The position numbers and the translations under genes are program-made. A stretch of DNA of 43,885 nucleotides from assembly GCA_028875055.1 (NCBI GenBank), contig JAPPGG010000016.1, forward strand, positions 1 to 43,885, read 5' to 3'. Of this stretch, positions 1,175 to 9,254 are shown piece by piece (the first letter of the stretch is position 1; the number at the start of each line of letters is the position of its first letter). The notes under the pieces are model-generated. The model was not told where the DNA came from, made no database searches, and saw nothing but the letters and a program-made list of their open reading frames with translations. The DNA is from Chloroflexota bacterium. GTDB lineage: Bacteria; Chloroflexota; Dehalococcoidia; Lucifugimonadales; UBA3495.

Positions 1175-2260
1175 CTATACCACCTGACCTGGCACACTGA
1201 CGCTGTCCTTTTCGAAGGCCGCATTCCCAGGTTTACGAGCCAGGAAACAGTACAGCGGCGTAAAAATACCGGCTCTGCCGCCGGCAACGTAGGCGTCGGC
1301 GGTATTGTCCAGCAACGCAACAACCTCTGCGCAGCCCTTCGGGAACATACCCAGCATCTCAGACAGCCTGATGGTCCCCTGTAGCAGCTTGCGACCCAGG
1401 GGAGTCCGGTACAGGGCATTGCCCCGGGTTCCGCGCCCGGTTGCCATTGGCTGATACCATGGGGTGGCCAATTCACTGTCCAATACGGCCAGGTCCTGCC
1501 CTTCAATCAATTGAAACCCCACCGTTTCAAGGGCCTGGTTCACCTGGTGTGTGGTCGCAATATCTTTGAGCGCAATGCCGCGCATCAGGTCCCGTTTAAT
1601 GTCGTGGTGCCGGCGGTCGCCGGGGTCGAATTTTTCGGTAAGGCACATTTCCTGGCCCCAGAAGAGGGCCCCGGGTTTCAGCACACGGTAGATCTCGGCG
1701 AATGCCCCAGCTTTGTCCGGCGCGTGGCAGGTGGATTCGATGGCATATCCACGATCGAAGGTGTTGTCCGGTATGGCGCCCATGTCCATGAAGCTGCACT
1801 CCAGATAGTCAACCATGTGGCCAATCCCTGCGGCCTCATCCAGCAATTTCGCCTTCTCTAACTGAATTCCATTGCTGTTGATTCCCAGGACACTGGCGCC
1901 GGACTCCCGAACGACGCGGCGCATCGGACCTCCGACTCCGCAGCCAACATCAATCACCCTCATGCCCTTGCTCAACTCCAGCCTGTCAATCATCAGACGC
2001 TGGTGCCGGACCTTGGCGTCTTCCAGGCTTTCTCCGGACGAAAGCGGGGCGAAGTGAAGGCTATCGCCCCAACCAAACTCCATGAACTCGGTGCAGAGGT
2101 CGTAATATTCCTTGACGGTATCGGCATGGTCGTAGCCGGTTGGGCCGGAATTCCCTTCCTCCGCCCTTTCCACCCAACCATCGAAGCCCTTCACGCGATG
2201 GCGAACGTCCGACCCTCGGTACGCAGCCTTCAGCCCGCTGGATAGTTTTCGCAGTTGCAT
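1175..2260 (-). CDS. Sterol C-24 methyltransferase-like SAM-dependent methyltransferase
   Basis: From the preferred start the protein has 361 residues. It carries three blocks diagnostic of the Erg6/SMT family: an aromatic block FMEFGWGDSLHFAP (about 59-72), SAM motif I VIDVGCGVGGP (about 102-112) and the sterol-binding block YAIESTCHAPD (about 172-182). The C-terminal part (TPLGRKLL, KGCAEVV, AGGRAGIFTPLYCFLARKP) matches the sterol methyltransferase C-terminal domain. The family moves a methyl group from SAM to C-24 of the sterol side chain. The reading frame extends upstream to 2362, but the ATG at 2260 is chosen because it follows GAAGAAGAGC and starts the conserved region. No other sterol gene is in the window. 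A related small-molecule methyltransferase with a different prenyl-type substrate is the main alternative. Confidence 0.8.
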   Translation of the reverse strand: MQLRKLSSGLKAAYRGSDVRHRVKGFDGWVERAEEGNSGPTGYDHADTVKEYYDLCTEFMEFGWGDSLHFAPLSSGESLEDAKVRHQRLMIDRLELSKGMRVIDVGCGVGGPMRRVVRESGASVLGINSNGIQLEKAKLLDEAAGIGHMVDYLECSFMDMGAIPDNTFDRGYAIESTCHAPDKAGAFAEIYRVLKPGALFWGQEMCLTEKFDPGDRRHHDIKRDLMRGIALKDIATTHQVNQALETVGFQLIEGQDLAVLDSELATPWYQPMATGRGTRGNALYRTPLGRKLLQGTIRLSEMLGMFPKGCAEVVALLDNTADAYVAGGRAGIFTPLYCFLARKPGNAAFEKDSVSVPGQVV

Positions 2261-2371
2261 GGGATGCTCTTCTTCAGATGACGTTCCGTCCGGGGCGGTT
2301 TCGTGAGCTGGGGAGGGGGCCGCCGCCAGCCATGCCCCCAAGCTCCAGCAGCATTCTAGCACCCAGTTCGG

Positions 2372-4173: not shown

Positions 4174-5235
4174 GTGATTGTGACCACTTTTCCTTCTGAT
4201 GCCGGAACTTCCCTGGACGCTCCCTCATCGCCATCACGCCTTGAAGTAAAGGACCTTCAGACCTGGTTCTACACCGGTCGCGGCGTGGTGAAGGCCGTGG
4301 ACGGTGTTAGTTTTACCCTGGAACCTGGCGAAACCCTGGGCCTGGTTGGAGAATCAGGTTCCGGCAAGAGCATTACCTGCCTCTCCATCCTCAGACTGGT
4401 CCCGGAGCCCGCCGGACGCATAATCGGTGGCGAAATCTGGCTGGGAGATACCGACCTGCTTCAACTGTCGCGCCATGAAATGGAGCAGATACGGGGCCGG
4501 CACGTTTCGATGGTGCTTCAGGACCCAATGACCTCCCTGAATCCCGTTTTCAACGTGGAAAAACAGGTGGGGGAGGGCTCTATGTACCACCTGGGCCTTC
4601 ACGGGTCCGGCCTCAAGGACAGGGTACAGCAACTGCTGCGCTGGGTGCGCATCCCCGCCCCGGAAGTTCGGGCCAACGACTACCCCCACCAGATGAGCGG
4701 TGGCATGCGCCAGCGAATCGTGGGCGCTATTGCCCTCTCATCCCAGCCCTCGGTGCTGATCGCCGACGAGCCTACCACCTCCCTGGACGTCACAATTCAG
4801 GCCCAGTACCTCCAGCTGCTGAAAGACCTGCAGGAAGAGCACCGTTTCTCCATGATATTCGTTACCCACGACTTCGGAATTGTGGCCAGGGTATGCGATC
4901 GGGTGGCGGTAATGTACGCCGGCAGGATAGTTGAGATGGCCCCAACCCGGGAACTGTTCGGTTCACCCCGTCATCCCTATGCCAGGGCGCTGATCCATTC
5001 CCTTCCCGACCCGGATACCGAAGTTGAGTGGCTTACCACCATACCCGGTCAACCGCCTTCCCTCTACGACCTTCCTCCCGGCTGCCCCTTTGCGCCCCGC
5101 TGCTCCGAGGCCATGGATATCTGCACGCAGGAGTATCCCCCAACCTTTGAGACGGGAATTGCCGAGTCGGGAGCCGCCGGCCCTCCCGCCAGCCATACGG
5201 CTGCCTGCTGGCTTTATGGAGACAAGAGCAGATGA
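4174..5235 (+). CDS. Peptide/nickel-type ABC transporter ATPase (DppD/OppD-like)
   Basis: This 353-residue cytoplasmic ATPase is the first of the two that power the importer encoded here. Walker A is GESGSGKS, the Q-loop region is [12 protein letters not shown], the signature is MSGGMRQR, Walker B is [12 protein letters not shown] and the H-loop is VTHD. The C-terminal oligopeptide-transporter extension is present ([12 protein letters not shown], then GCPFAPRC with paired cysteines), which places it in the DppD/OppD group rather than among amino-acid ATPases. The start is GTG (4174, or GTG at 4180); the ATG at 4165 runs into a stop. Its TGA overlaps the ATG of the next ATPase by four bases, so the two are translationally coupled. 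Confidence 0.9.
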
Positions 5236-6269
5236 CGGCGACGGCAGGAAGCCCGCAGCCGCTGCTGGACGTTCAACACGTACGGAAATACTTCCCTGTG
5301 AACCAGGGCGTGCTGTTCCGCCGGCCGGTGGGCTACATCAAGGCGGTGGACGACGTGGCCTTCACCATTGCGCCCGGTGAAACCTTCGGCCTGGTGGGAG
5401 AGTCGGGCTGCGGCAAGTCCACACTGGCCAAGCTGATACTGCTGCTGGAACCCCTCACCGAGGGCGAGATAGTATTTGAGGGCCAGTCCTTGACACGCCT
5501 GTCGGGAGAATCGCTGAGAAAATATCGCGGGACTGTGGGGGCTGTCTTCCAGGACCCCTTCAGCTCCCTTTCCCCGCGCATGAGGGTCCGGGACATTGTT
5601 GGAGACCCCCTTACCGTAACCACCGACACCCCCAGGCGCCAGATTGAGGAACGGGTGGCGGAAGTGCTGGACCAGGTAGGGTTGAATCCGGCCACCGCCT
5701 CCAACTACCCTCACGAGTTCAGCGGGGGGCAGCGGCAGCGCATAGCCATTGCCCGCGCGCTTTCCGCCTTTCCCAGGCTGGTAATTCTGGACGAGCCCGT
5801 GTCCGCCCTGGACGCTTCCATTCGCGCCCAGATCATCAACCTGCTCAAGGCGCTGCAGCAGGACCTGGGCCTCAGTTACCTGCTCATCGCCCACGACCTG
5901 GGCACAGTGCGCTTTCTCAGCGACTATGTGGGGGTTATGTACCTGGGACAGCTGGTTGAGAAGTCCACCTCCAGGCGGGTCTTCACCAACCCCCTGCATC
6001 CCTACACCCGCGCCCTCCTTTCTGCGGCCCTGCCGGTGCGACCGGACGTGGCTCGGGAAGAAGTAGTCATTTCAGGCGAGGTGCCAAGTCCCCTGGATCC
6101 TCCCTCCGGATGCCGGTTCTTCCCTCGCTGCCCGGCGGCAATGCCCGTCTGCGAAACGGTTCAGCCCCTTCTGGCTCCGGCCGAGGATGGTCACGAGGTG
6201 GCCTGCCACCTTTACCCCACCAGCGTCCCCCAGGGCGCGACCGTTCCCGGAATTCAGGGAGGTACCTGA
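5232..6269 (+). CDS. Peptide/nickel-type ABC transporter ATPase (DppF/OppF-like)
   Basis: This 345-residue second ATPase of the importer shows Walker A GESGCGKS, Q-loop FQDPFSSLSPRM, signature FSGGQRQRIAIARALS, Walker B LVILDEPVSALD and switch histidine AHD. The FSSLSPRM sequence and the C-terminal HPYTRALLSAALP...GCRFFPRCP block are typical of DppF/OppF partners. It starts inside the stop codon of the preceding ATPase gene and is followed by a 124-bp leader before the binding-protein gene. The N-terminal VRKYFPVNQGVLFRRPVGYIKAVDDV region is standard for the subfamily. Confidence 0.9.
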   Translation: MTATAGSPQPLLDVQHVRKYFPVNQGVLFRRPVGYIKAVDDVAFTIAPGETFGLVGESGCGKSTLAKLILLLEPLTEGEIVFEGQSLTRLSGESLRKYRGTVGAVFQDPFSSLSPRMRVRDIVGDPLTVTTDTPRRQIEERVAEVLDQVGLNPATASNYPHEFSGGQRQRIAIARALSAFPRLVILDEPVSALDASIRAQIINLLKALQQDLGLSYLLIAHDLGTVRFLSDYVGVMYLGQLVEKSTSRRVFTNPLHPYTRALLSAALPVRPDVAREEVVISGEVPSPLDPPSGCRFFPRCPAAMPVCETVQPLLAPAEDGHEVACHLYPTSVPQGATVPGIQGGT

Positions 6270-6393
6270 TTGAGCGGAAAGTTGCGCTTGCGCGGCGGCG
6301 CCCGCGTTGCTTATATTTGCCCAGACAAGCACTACGCCCCGTCGGGAACGGCCCCGGCCAAGGGTCCGATAATCAAAGGGAGAAGTTATTGAC

Positions 6394-8241
6394 ATGAAAA
6401 CAGGAAGATTTTTCCGGCTGTTGGGAGTTTGTCTTTCGCTGATGGCGCTGGCCAGCGTGGCCGTTGGCTGTGGCAGTTCGGCCACCCCGACTGAGGCCCC
6501 GCCACCCGCAGCCTCCGAACCTGCCGCATCCGCTGCCCCGGCTGCGCCGGCCGCCGCCCAGCCGGCCGCTCCGGCGCCCGCCGGCCAGGATGCCATGACC
6601 GGGGCGGAACCGACCCAGGCGCCGGTTCAGTCCCAGGCGCCGGTTCCTGCCGCCGCCGCCCAGCAGGAAGGCAGCGTTACCGCAGAGCCTACGGCCGTAC
6701 CTGAACCCGTGGATTCGGTCCGTGTCCCCGAGGGCATTTTGACCGTATCGGAGTTTGATTACGATACCGAGTCGTGGCTGCCCTGGGAGGGCGTTACCCA
6801 GCGATTCTACTGGGAACGCGTCATGGAAACCCTGCTGCTGCTGGACCCCGTAACCTGGGAATTCAAGGCGGGCCTGGCTGAGGAATGGTCGCTTTCCGAA
6901 GACGGCCGTACCGTTACCTATAACCTGAAGGAGGGCGTTCCCTTCCACGGCGGCTATGGCGAGTTCACCGCCTCCGACGCCGCATACAGCCTCGACCAGT
7001 GGCTTTACAACGAAGAGTCCACCCACCCGTCGGTGGCTGCCCAGCTGCAGGCCGAACCTCAGGTGCGGGCCCTGGATACCTACACGGTCCAGGTGGAATA
7101 CACCAAGAACCCCTTCCTCACCGCCTTTATGGACCTTTCCTCGGGCAATAACGGCACGGGAATGATGTCCCGCGCCTTCGTCAAGGAAGTCGGTCTCGAC
7201 GGCGCCCGCCGCGAGGCCATCGGCACCGGCCCCTACGAATTCGTGGAACACAAGCTGGGCGAGTCCATGGAGGTGGAGGCCACCGAGGGCCGCCACTGGC
7301 GCATAGTGCCCCAGTGGAAGACCATTAAATTCCGGATTACTCCCGAGGCCTCAACCCGTCTCGCCCAGGTATTGAGCGGCGAGGTGGACATCGCCCTTCT
7401 GCCCGGGTCCTTCAAGCGCCAGGCGGAAGCGGCCAATGTGCGCACCATCCTCAACCCCGGAGTTGCCGGCGTCTTCATCGTGCCCGTGGTTTACATTCCG
7501 GGCACCACCGGCATAGATGCGCCGGACCCCAACAACCCCAATGCCGACCCCGTATTCCGGGAAGCCCTGAGCCTGGCCATTAACCGCCAGGAACTGGCCG
7601 ACGTCGTCTTCGCCGGCGGCGCCGTACCTACCGGCATTACCGACCTGTCCCCCATCTCCCTGGGTTACGACGCCCGCTGGGAAGAGCCCGACCCCTATGA
7701 CCTCGAACGGGCAAAGCAGTTGCTGGCCGAGTCGGGCAAGGCCGGCCTGACCTTTGAGTTCCAGCAGCGTCCCCTGGGCGGTATTCCTGAAGGGCCCCAG
7801 TTGGCGGAAGCCATTGCCGGCATGTGGGAGGCCGCAGGCCTGGACGTGGAACTGAAGCTGAACCTGCAGGGCAGCGCCCATTCGGCCATGCGCAGGGCCA
7901 GGGAGCTGGAAGGCAAGATCTGGCTGATGCGCCTGGGCCACCTTACCGACACCACCAGGCGGCTCATCTCCCAGTATCGCTGCACGGCCGAGCGCACGGC
8001 CCTGTTCGCCTGCAATTCGGAGCTGGAAGCCCTTACCCCGAGAATTCAGGCCTCCACCAACCTGGAGGAAAAGGACGAGCTCATTCGCGAAGCCTACGGG
8101 ATACTACTGGACGAGCGCACGGTTATTCCCGTTGTCCAGACCGCCAGCCTCTACGCCATCGGGCCCCGGGTTGGCAGTTGGTCGCCCCGGCTGGGCGAAC
8201 GCTTTACCACTGAACTGGAAAGCGTGGGACACGCCAACTGA
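6394..8241 (+). CDS. Peptide-type ABC transporter substrate-binding lipoprotein (SBP family 5)
   Basis: This 615-residue exported protein captures the ligand for the importer. Residues 1-26 are a lipoprotein signal (basic MKTGRFFR, hydrophobic core, lipobox VAVGC with Cys26). Residues about 30-105 form a long Ala/Pro/Gln-rich linker (ATPTEAPPPAASEPAAS and similar), common in Chloroflexota lipoproteins. The family 5 binding domain then starts at about residue 110. It is recognised by WSLSEDGRTVTYNLKEGVPFHG, the region around GTGPYEF, the TRLAQVLSGEVDIA block and the C-terminal REAYGILLDERTVIPVVQ. The ligand could be a peptide, glycoside or opine and cannot be predicted. A GGGAG ribosome site precedes the ATG, and a hairpin separates it from the permeases. 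Confidence 0.9.
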   Translation: MKTGRFFRLLGVCLSLMALASVAVGCGSSATPTEAPPPAASEPAASAAPAAPAAAQPAAPAPAGQDAMTGAEPTQAPVQSQAPVPAAAAQQEGSVTAEPTAVPEPVDSVRVPEGILTVSEFDYDTESWLPWEGVTQRFYWERVMETLLLLDPVTWEFKAGLAEEWSLSEDGRTVTYNLKEGVPFHGGYGEFTASDAAYSLDQWLYNEESTHPSVAAQLQAEPQVRALDTYTVQVEYTKNPFLTAFMDLSSGNNGTGMMSRAFVKEVGLDGARREAIGTGPYEFVEHKLGESMEVEATEGRHWRIVPQWKTIKFRITPEASTRLAQVLSGEVDIALLPGSFKRQAEAANVRTILNPGVAGVFIVPVVYIPGTTGIDAPDPNNPNADPVFREALSLAINRQELADVVFAGGAVPTGITDLSPISLGYDARWEEPDPYDLERAKQLLAESGKAGLTFEFQQRPLGGIPEGPQLAEAIAGMWEAAGLDVELKLNLQGSAHSAMRRARELEGKIWLMRLGHLTDTTRRLISQYRCTAERTALFACNSELEALTPRIQASTNLEEKDELIREAYGILLDERTVIPVVQTASLYAIGPRVGSWSPRLGERFTTELESVGHAN

Positions 8242-8260
8242 TACAGATCCAGACTTACTT

Positions 8261-8315
8261 CCGCGTCTCCCCGGGGAGGTTCCGCTCCGGTACGGGGGAC
8301 GCGGGGGTCTTTTTC
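8261..8315 (+). terminator. Terminator/attenuator hairpin between binding-protein and permease genes
   Basis: CCGCGTCTCCCC (8261-8272) pairs with GGGGGACGCGG (8294-8304), with a 21-base loop, and is followed by a T-rich run at about 8309-8314. It lies 20 bp after the binding-protein stop and 22 bp before the permease start. Partial read-through would give more binding protein than membrane subunits. Confidence 0.65.
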
Positions 8316-8336
8316 CATCAAGGATGCAGGTCCTGA

Positions 8337-9254
8337 ATGCGTAGATACATACTGGCCCGCTTCGTCCAGGCGCTGGTGAGCATGGTTGCCCTGAGCCTGA
8401 TCGTCTTCTTCCTGGCCCGCCTTACCGGCGACCCCAGGGACGTGCTGCTGGGCGACGATTACTCCCAGGAGCAGTGGGACAAGATGGGCGAACTCTGGAG
8501 CCTGGACGAACCCATCTACGTCCAGTACGCCATATTCCTCAGGAATGCGGCCACGGGCAACTTCGGCGAATCCATATTCTGGAAGGAACCGGCGGTGGAA
8601 ATGCTGGCCCGACGCATACCGGCCACCGTCCAGTTGACCCTTACCGCCATGTCCCTGAGCGTAATCATCGCCATTCCCATGGGAATCCTCTCCGCCGTAA
8701 AGCGGGACACCTGGATTGACTACGCGGGCAAGACCATCGCCATGCTGGGCCAGTCGGTGCCCGCTTTCTGGCTGGGCATCATCCTCATCTGGGTGTTTGC
8801 CGTATCCTGGAGCCTGCTGCCCACCTCCGGTCGCGACGGGCCCCTCCATTACGTGCTCCCTTCAGTCACCCTGGGCTGGTTCACCGTGGCCGGCATCATG
8901 AGGATTACCCGCTCGGCCATGCTGGACGTGCTGGACAGCGAATACATCAAGCTGGCCCGGGTAAAGGGTGTGCCGGAGAACGTCGTCATCTGGAACCATG
9001 CCCTGCGCAATGCCGCCATTCCGGTGGTCACTTTCCTGGGGCTCATCCTGGGCAACTTCCTGACCGGATTCGTGGTGGTTGAGACCATCTTCTCCTGGCC
9101 GGGCGTCGGGCTGCTGGCCATCCGGGGAATTCAGTCCAACGATTTTGCCATCATCCAGACGGTGGTCATGTTTGGCGGCCTGCTGTTTATTACCATCAAC
9201 TTCCTGGTGGACATCTTTTACGGGTACCTGGACCCCCGGATCCGCTACGAATGA
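8337..9254 (+). CDS. Peptide-type ABC transporter permease (DppB-like)
   Basis: This 305-residue inner-membrane subunit has an N-terminal transmembrane segment (RYILARFVQALVSMVALSLI), the conserved DppB start region RLTGDPRDVLLG, and about six membrane segments in all. The coupling (EAA-like) loop is IKLARVKGVPENVVIWNHALRNAAIPV, which contacts the ATPases. The C-terminus VDIFYGYLDPRIRYE is characteristic. DppB pairs with DppC, encoded 57 bp downstream. Length and topology are normal for the family. Confidence 0.92.
   Translation: MRRYILARFVQALVSMVALSLIVFFLARLTGDPRDVLLGDDYSQEQWDKMGELWSLDEPIYVQYAIFLRNAATGNFGESIFWKEPAVEMLARRIPATVQLTLTAMSLSVIIAIPMGILSAVKRDTWIDYAGKTIAMLGQSVPAFWLGIILIWVFAVSWSLLPTSGRDGPLHYVLPSVTLGWFTVAGIMRITRSAMLDVLDSEYIKLARVKGVPENVVIWNHALRNAAIPVVTFLGLILGNFLTGFVVVETIFSWPGVGLLAIRGIQSNDFAIIQTVVMFGGLLFITINFLVDIFYGYLDPRIRYE

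Follow-up and report, generated by a model that had tools for sequence, protein, structure and literature searches.

A separate clade of the sterol methyltransferase family in a Chloroflexota genome and its recurrent oxygenase and transporter neighbours

The locus and its gene

The window analysed here is a stretch of 43,885 nucleotides which forms contig C17 of a SAR202-like Chloroflexota MAG (3.75 Mb, 98.4% complete, 75 contigs). Close to its beginning lies a gene for a member of the sterol methyltransferase (SMT) family. The gene is read on the minus strand, and the plus-strand frame over the same interval is interrupted by stops. The features of the locus are listed in Table 1. The open reading frame is genuine and goes far beyond what chance would produce, as nearly full-length relatives at 59–73% identity are present in at least 80 genomes.

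Table 1. Features of the SMT-A locus in the window.
Feature	Positions	Strand	Remarks
SMT-A gene, 361 aa	1175..2260	-	ATG at 2260, stop 1175-1177
Putative ribosome-binding site AAGAAGAG, purine-rich, 6 nt upstream of ATG	2267..2274	-	Read from sequence
Region I, FMEFGWGDSLHFAP, residues 59-72	2045..2086	-	ERG6 Y81/F89 positions correspond to M60/L68
Region II, SAM-binding VIDVGCGVGGP, residues 102-112	1925..1957	-	
Region III, YAIESTCHAPDK, residues 172-183	1712..1747	-	
Region IV, WGQEMCLTEKFD (canonical form AVYEWVMTDKYD)	1625..1660	-	
Sterol_MT_C domain (PF08498), residues 285-344	1229..1408	-	

The protein has each of the four SMT regions as well as the C-terminal domain of the family. The latter, Sterol_MT_C (PF08498), reaches 66.5 bits where the curated cut-off lies at 21.7, and matches to this domain are found in none of 14 control genomes. 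The protein combines the class I methyltransferase domain and Region II (GCGVGGP) of the SMT/ERG6 family with its Region III and its conserved acids and histidines. A generic methyltransferase (sarcosine/dimethylglycine, CFA synthase) was rejected, since the corresponding NCBIfam models all fall far below their cut-offs. The preliminary description had placed an SMT homologue here on the strength of an aromatic block, the VIDVGCGVGGP motif, a sterol block and a C-terminal SMT domain; its coordinates are right and each of the four elements is found in the protein.

The surroundings in the window are modest. Dipeptide-type ABC transporter genes (two ATPases, a lipoprotein and a permease, read by eye) occupy 4174-9254 and appear ordinary. 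The aldo/keto-reductase-like neighbour at 167-1123 was considered as a partner and set aside, as the sole recurrent neighbour family of the window is an ABC ATPase. The earlier remark that no cyclase or demethylase gene lies nearby holds within the window.

Family, fold and a reshaped Region I

The window protein is 35% identical to yeast ERG6 and 39% identical to two canonical bacterial SMTs. A maximum-likelihood tree of 65 rows places it within a clade, here called SMT-A, whose support is 100/100 and whose stem is long, at 0.86 changes per column. The neighbours of SMT-A in this tree are bacterial SMT-B groups and three SMTs from eukaryotes; the root is weak, with one partial outgroup sequence on a long branch. 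Two rows labelled A (L046_A and L048_A) are canonical copies; a second tree, restricted to SMT-A, was built with stricter picking.

An AlphaFold model of the protein reaches a pLDDT of 88.5 and a pTM of 0.87. The closest solved folds in the PDB are TleD, MitM, SpnF, RebM and the geranyl diphosphate C-methyltransferase. These share the class I methyltransferase fold, with TM-scores (normalised by target length) that mostly lie between 0.70 and 0.82, but at no more than 24% identity, and the match stops short of the sterol-specific C-terminal domain. No solved full-length SMT structure was recognised by sequence search. Domain, motifs, tree and fold together support membership in the SMT family, in the separate clade SMT-A.

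The clade departs from other SMTs in Region I, which reads FM[V/E]FGWG.SLHF in SMT-A and YEYGWG.SFHF in canonical enzymes, so that two aromatic residues are lost. The GWG.S.HF core is largely retained, whereas methionine at Y81 and leucine at F89 are found clade-wide (ERG6 numbering here and below) and valine is the commonest residue at the E82 position. Beyond leucine for F89, the substitutions include glutamine for E108, tryptophan for A221, glutamine for Y223 and cysteine for L362. Among 80 SMT-A and 22 other SMTs, at least 95% in either set retain the equivalents of H90, H107, D125, D189, E195, E209 and D276. Yeast ERG6 and plant SMT1/SMT2 share with SMT-A Regions II and III, the C-terminal domain and the conserved acids and histidines, while SMT-A differs from ERG6 by Y81M, F89L, A221W and Y223Q and by being bacterial.

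Region I, from Tyr81 to Phe91, is reported to guide the cation through its aromatic residues and to determine how diverse the products of SMTs are (PMC5711494). With Region I aromatics replaced, regiochemistry or substrate may therefore differ, and the sequences make it likely that the substrate or the product of SMT-A is shifted relative to ERG6-like SMTs. Of the proposed name, sterol C-24 methyltransferase, the family part thus stands, and the phylogeny with eukaryotic and bacterial SMTs that had been called for puts the protein inside the family; the C-24 part is less certain, given the change of Y81 to methionine and of F89 to leucine.

Distribution and probable transfer among phyla

In the GTDB genome collection, the best 80 loci are all SMT-A and come from MAGs of at least 11 phyla. 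Seven of them bear accession prefixes that match the symbiont table of the sponge Aplysina aerophoba (bins 22, 52, 56, 65, 75, 90 and 129), and an eighth (bin134) belongs to the same series. Bin22 (SAR202) is described among the symbionts of this sponge (Slaby et al., PMC5649159). Furthermore, genome names with RHO, COS, IRC and APA would correspond to the sponge hosts of PMC8163846. The organism of the window is probably a sponge symbiont too, to judge from a relative of the same genus (G002).

Within the phylum of the window, 25 of 400 sampled genomes have a strong match (7 of 225 genera), with an identity of at least 61% in 23 of the 25; the occurrence of SMT-A is therefore patchy. On the tree restricted to SMT-A, the phylum labels need 21 changes where the least possible number is 10. 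The 65-row tree contains well-supported cross-phylum pairs, Gammaproteobacteria with Gemmatimonadota and Palauibacter with Acidobacteria. Both observations point to a spread of SMT-A among phyla by horizontal transfer. Carriage by phages or plasmids was considered and rejected: no plasmid or phage match was obtained at 1e-30, and viral contigs gave only distant methyltransferases.

A recurrent set of neighbours

The neighbours of the 80 loci were collected by homology-weighted gene picking in flanks of up to 8 kb, annotated with Pfam and NCBIfam and recounted by tblastn. Four core genes recur: a fusion of GPP34 and cytochrome P450, a KshA-type Rieske oxygenase, an FAD oxidoreductase and an MMPL transporter. 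At least one of them lies within 8 kb in 65 of the 80 loci, and genes of this cassette are found near SMT-A in all 11 named phyla. The P450 part of the fusion (~675 aa) is near SMT-A in 57/80 loci and a Rieske oxygenase with a KshA C-terminal domain in 46/80. The Rieske protein gives KshA_C and KshA matches, and its best solved match is 3-ketosteroid 9alpha-hydroxylase. FAD oxidoreductases were counted at 28 of the 80 loci, MMPL transporters with sterol-sensing or Patched matches at 21 plus 14, and AcrB-type pumps at 13.

The association also holds at the level of genomes. Among 59 order-level relatives, the Rieske gene occurs in 10 of 11 genomes with SMT-A and in 1 of 48 others (p=1.9e-9), and a closely related P450 fusion accompanies SMT-A in 10 of 11 genomes and is found in 0 of the 48 others (p=1.8e-10); these p values overstate the strength of the co-occurrence, because related genomes are not independent.

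In the genome of the window, the P450 fusion, the MMPL and the Rieske gene lie together on contig C14 without SMT-A. Two relatives (G001 and G037) carry SMT-A between the MMPL and the P450 fusion. The corresponding slot between fusion and MMPL measures ~166 bp in the genome of the window (L154:11016-11182), and in relatives it holds SMT-A (L155:11324-12586). In G002 and G053 SMT-A is on a different contig from the cassette. The shrunken slot and the separate contigs suggest repeated relocation, or loss and regain, of SMT-A.

The GPP34-P450 fusion deserves a comment of its own. GPP34, a Golgi phosphoprotein 3-like domain, is joined to the cytochrome P450 in one open reading frame, an arrangement conserved across phyla (for example L024:9077-11101 on the minus strand, and L154:8992-11013 on the plus strand in the genome of the window). 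The P450 part shows the ExxR motif and a GLGTHxCLG heme loop. No description of this fusion architecture was found in the open-access literature. Distant fusions at 33-34% identity are encoded at G020:C14:105467-107470, G030:C42:584555-586546 and G026:C20:841-2841; G020 and G030 carry theirs without an SMT match, hence a second branch of the GPP34-P450 family exists.

Sterol capacity and linkage to sterol genes

The preliminary description proposed a genome search for squalene epoxidase and oxidosqualene cyclase (OSC). At the sensitivity used, squalene epoxidase gave no match in the genome of the window, and the search for OSC returned only a squalene-hopene-type cyclase. This single cyclase lies in an hpn cluster on contig C62, has a DxDD-type motif and is flanked by hpnH-, hpnG- and hpnA-like genes (read by eye). 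The pair that marks de novo sterol synthesis of the type encoded by clusters of steroid genes (CSGs), OSC and squalene epoxidase in one genome, was thus not detected, and with a squalene-hopene cyclase alone the organism has no detectable sterol route. The same hopanoid cluster contains a cytochrome P450-like open reading frame beside the hpnH-like gene (L005:14711-16156, minus strand), possibly a hopanoid-modifying P450. The genome also encodes a second, canonical SMT on contig C21 (L001:598-1701) with the Region I sequence FEYGWG.SFHF. The open reading frames in the 20 kb around it (L006), read by eye, include no recognisable sterol-synthesis gene.

This picture extends to other genomes with SMT-A. 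A long OSC-like protein is found in only 7 of 49 and is absent from 42; no cyclase of any kind matched in 26, and no squalene/phytoene synthase (SQS/PSY-type) gene in six, including three Dadabacteria. One of these three, which also lack a cyclase match, is a single-chromosome assembly. The Dadabacteria in question (L026, L040 and L061 in G066, G075 and G089) each contain two to three SMT_C matches in a small genome, and hold SMT-A together with the Rieske gene and an MMPL. Incompleteness of MAGs can explain single absences but hardly the overall pattern. We infer that exogenous sterol is the simplest common substrate, and the earlier suggestion that the enzyme might act on scavenged sterols is favoured.

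In Nitrospirota, the cassette is physically linked to sterol genes. Within 20 kb, the Nitrospira bin75 from Aplysina aerophoba combines a P450 fusion, SMT-A, a Rieske fragment, an SMT-B and a fused epoxidase-OSC with a second P450, SdmA, SdmB, an MMPL and an FAD oxidoreductase. In another MAG of the Nitrospirales (L048), SMT-A and the Rieske gene adjoin an SMT-B, SdmB (303 bits) and SdmA (415 bits), the last two being named by best match since their scores lie below the NCBIfam cut-offs of 600. No other observation speaks as strongly for an action of the cassette on sterols.

What SMT-A may do

Taken together, we consider it reasonably probable that SMT-A is a divergent sterol side-chain methyltransferase and part of a horizontally spread tailoring and transport set that works on exogenous sterols. 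The enzyme would move a methyl group from SAM onto a double bond of the sterol side chain and quench the resulting cation, as ERG6 does; the re-shaped Region I would therefore probably go with a different preferred sterol or product. The set would consist of SMT-A, the GPP34-P450 fusion, the KshA-type Rieske oxygenase and an MMPL with sterol-sensing-domain-like matches, often joined by the FAD oxidoreductase. Its carriers are MAGs from many phyla, among them several documented sponge symbionts, and in the genome of the window it is divided between the contig of the window (SMT-A) and C14, which holds the P450 fusion, the MMPL and the Rieske gene. An outside source, the host or other symbionts, would supply the sterol, because no OSC or squalene epoxidase was detected in that genome. 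Several observations count against this explanation: the lost aromatic residues of Region I, SMT-A being unlinked to the cassette in the genome of the window, the FAD oxidoreductase gene not being found there, and 15/80 loci that have no cassette gene in the retrieved flank, some flanks being incomplete. In addition, KshA-type Rieske enzymes, like P450s, accept many substrates, and the hopanoids made by the genome of the window mean that an endogenous triterpenoid is available.

A rather unlikely alternative is methylation of a non-sterol isoprenoid such as squalene, a hopanoid, a carotenoid or a quinone side chain. The altered sterol-binding Region I would fit, as would the hopanoid cluster and the SQS/PSY-type gene present in 43 of the 49 SMT-A genomes, and the Botryococcus TMTs, SMT relatives with variant sterol-binding domains, do use linear triterpenes (PMC3533583). 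The conserved partners, however, include a steroid-type Rieske oxygenase and MMPLs with sterol-sensing matches, and in Nitrospirota the cassette is linked to complete sterol clusters. The 26 genomes without a cyclase match and the six without SQS/PSY, three Dadabacteria among them, weigh in the same direction, and as a general substrate hopanoids or squalene are disfavoured for this reason.

The kinship of the Rieske protein with 3-ketosteroid 9alpha-hydroxylase, an enzyme of steroid degradation, raises the prospect that SMT-A serves the breakdown or detoxification of sponge steroids and not the making of membrane sterols. Its substrate would then be a steroid on which the Rieske enzyme or the GPP34-P450 had already acted as an oxidase, or it would carry out another reaction on such a steroid (methylation elsewhere, or no methylation). 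The change in Region I and the efflux-like neighbours of the AcrB and MMPL types agree with this. We nevertheless regard it as quite improbable: no other steroid-degradation gene was noticed among the recurrent neighbour families as annotated, the Nitrospirota cassette sits inside a biosynthetic cluster, and side-chain alkylation is not known as a step of sterol degradation. De novo synthesis, with the missing genes in unassembled regions and SMT-A as an ordinary pathway enzyme, draws on the assembly being a MAG in 75 contigs and on such clusters in other sponge symbionts, including Dehalococcoidia (PMC9531527). At 98.4% completeness, with no squalene epoxidase match and a single cyclase of the squalene-hopene type, it is disfavoured and appears highly improbable; OSC is also missing from most other SMT-A genomes, and the other SMT of this genome is canonical, like those that lie within sterol clusters.

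Relation to known systems

Bacterial SMTs exist and work. According to Brown et al. 2023 (PMC10070321), three of them make 24-isopropyl sterols; symbiont enzymes, including those from Aplysina aerophoba, methylate, ethylate or isopropylate C-24; a Chlamydiae MAG without other sterol genes has an active SMT; and 23 of 24 bacterial SMTs fall in two clades. In the same study, two of ten sponge-symbiont SMTs are not reported active on desmosterol, which would count against our preferred explanation of SMT-A as a sterol side-chain methyltransferase if either belonged to SMT-A. By description, these enzymes belong to the same family and the same kind of source as SMT-A; the main text of that study mentions neither a P450 fusion nor a KshA-type Rieske neighbour. 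In Ircinia symbionts, CSGs occur in ten phyla with evidence of horizontal transfer and an enrichment of SMT1/ERG6 (Kelly et al. 2022, PMC9531527). These are de novo clusters (ERG24, CYP51, LSS), whereas most genomes with SMT-A have no OSC-like protein, and the gene belongs to a tailoring and transport cassette. A sterol cluster with an SMT has also been described from Melophlus (PMC7074536). TMT-1/2/3 of Botryococcus braunii, likened to SMT-A by description, are SMT relatives with an altered sterol-binding region, but they are eukaryotic and act on squalene or botryococcene (PMC3533583). No later work on the theme was found in the open-access literature. The SMT-A subfamily (provisionally) and its cassette appear to be new; bacterial SMTs and sterol clusters of sponge symbionts were already known.

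Implications for sterol biomarkers

Side-chain alkylated steranes are read as eukaryote traces, and 24-isopropylcholestane possibly as the oldest animal trace. Bacterial SMTs had already weakened this reading. Our analysis adds a distinct SMT clade which spans at least 11 phyla, its bearers being documented or probable symbionts of sponges, and which is tied to repeated oxygenases and transporters in genomes which mostly seem unable to make sterols. It leads to the testable prediction that symbionts alter sterols made by others, and names a partner set: the GPP34-P450, the KshA-like Rieske enzyme and the MMPL. A broader view, which we hold only tentatively and somewhat doubt, is that horizontal transfer has given sponge-dwelling bacteria from a dozen phyla a common cassette for moving and remodelling host sterols, with side-chain alkylation by SMT-A and oxidation by the GPP34-P450 and the KshA-like Rieske enzyme. 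If this were true, part of the unusual sponge sterols, including some animal biomarkers, would be co-produced by symbionts from host sterols.
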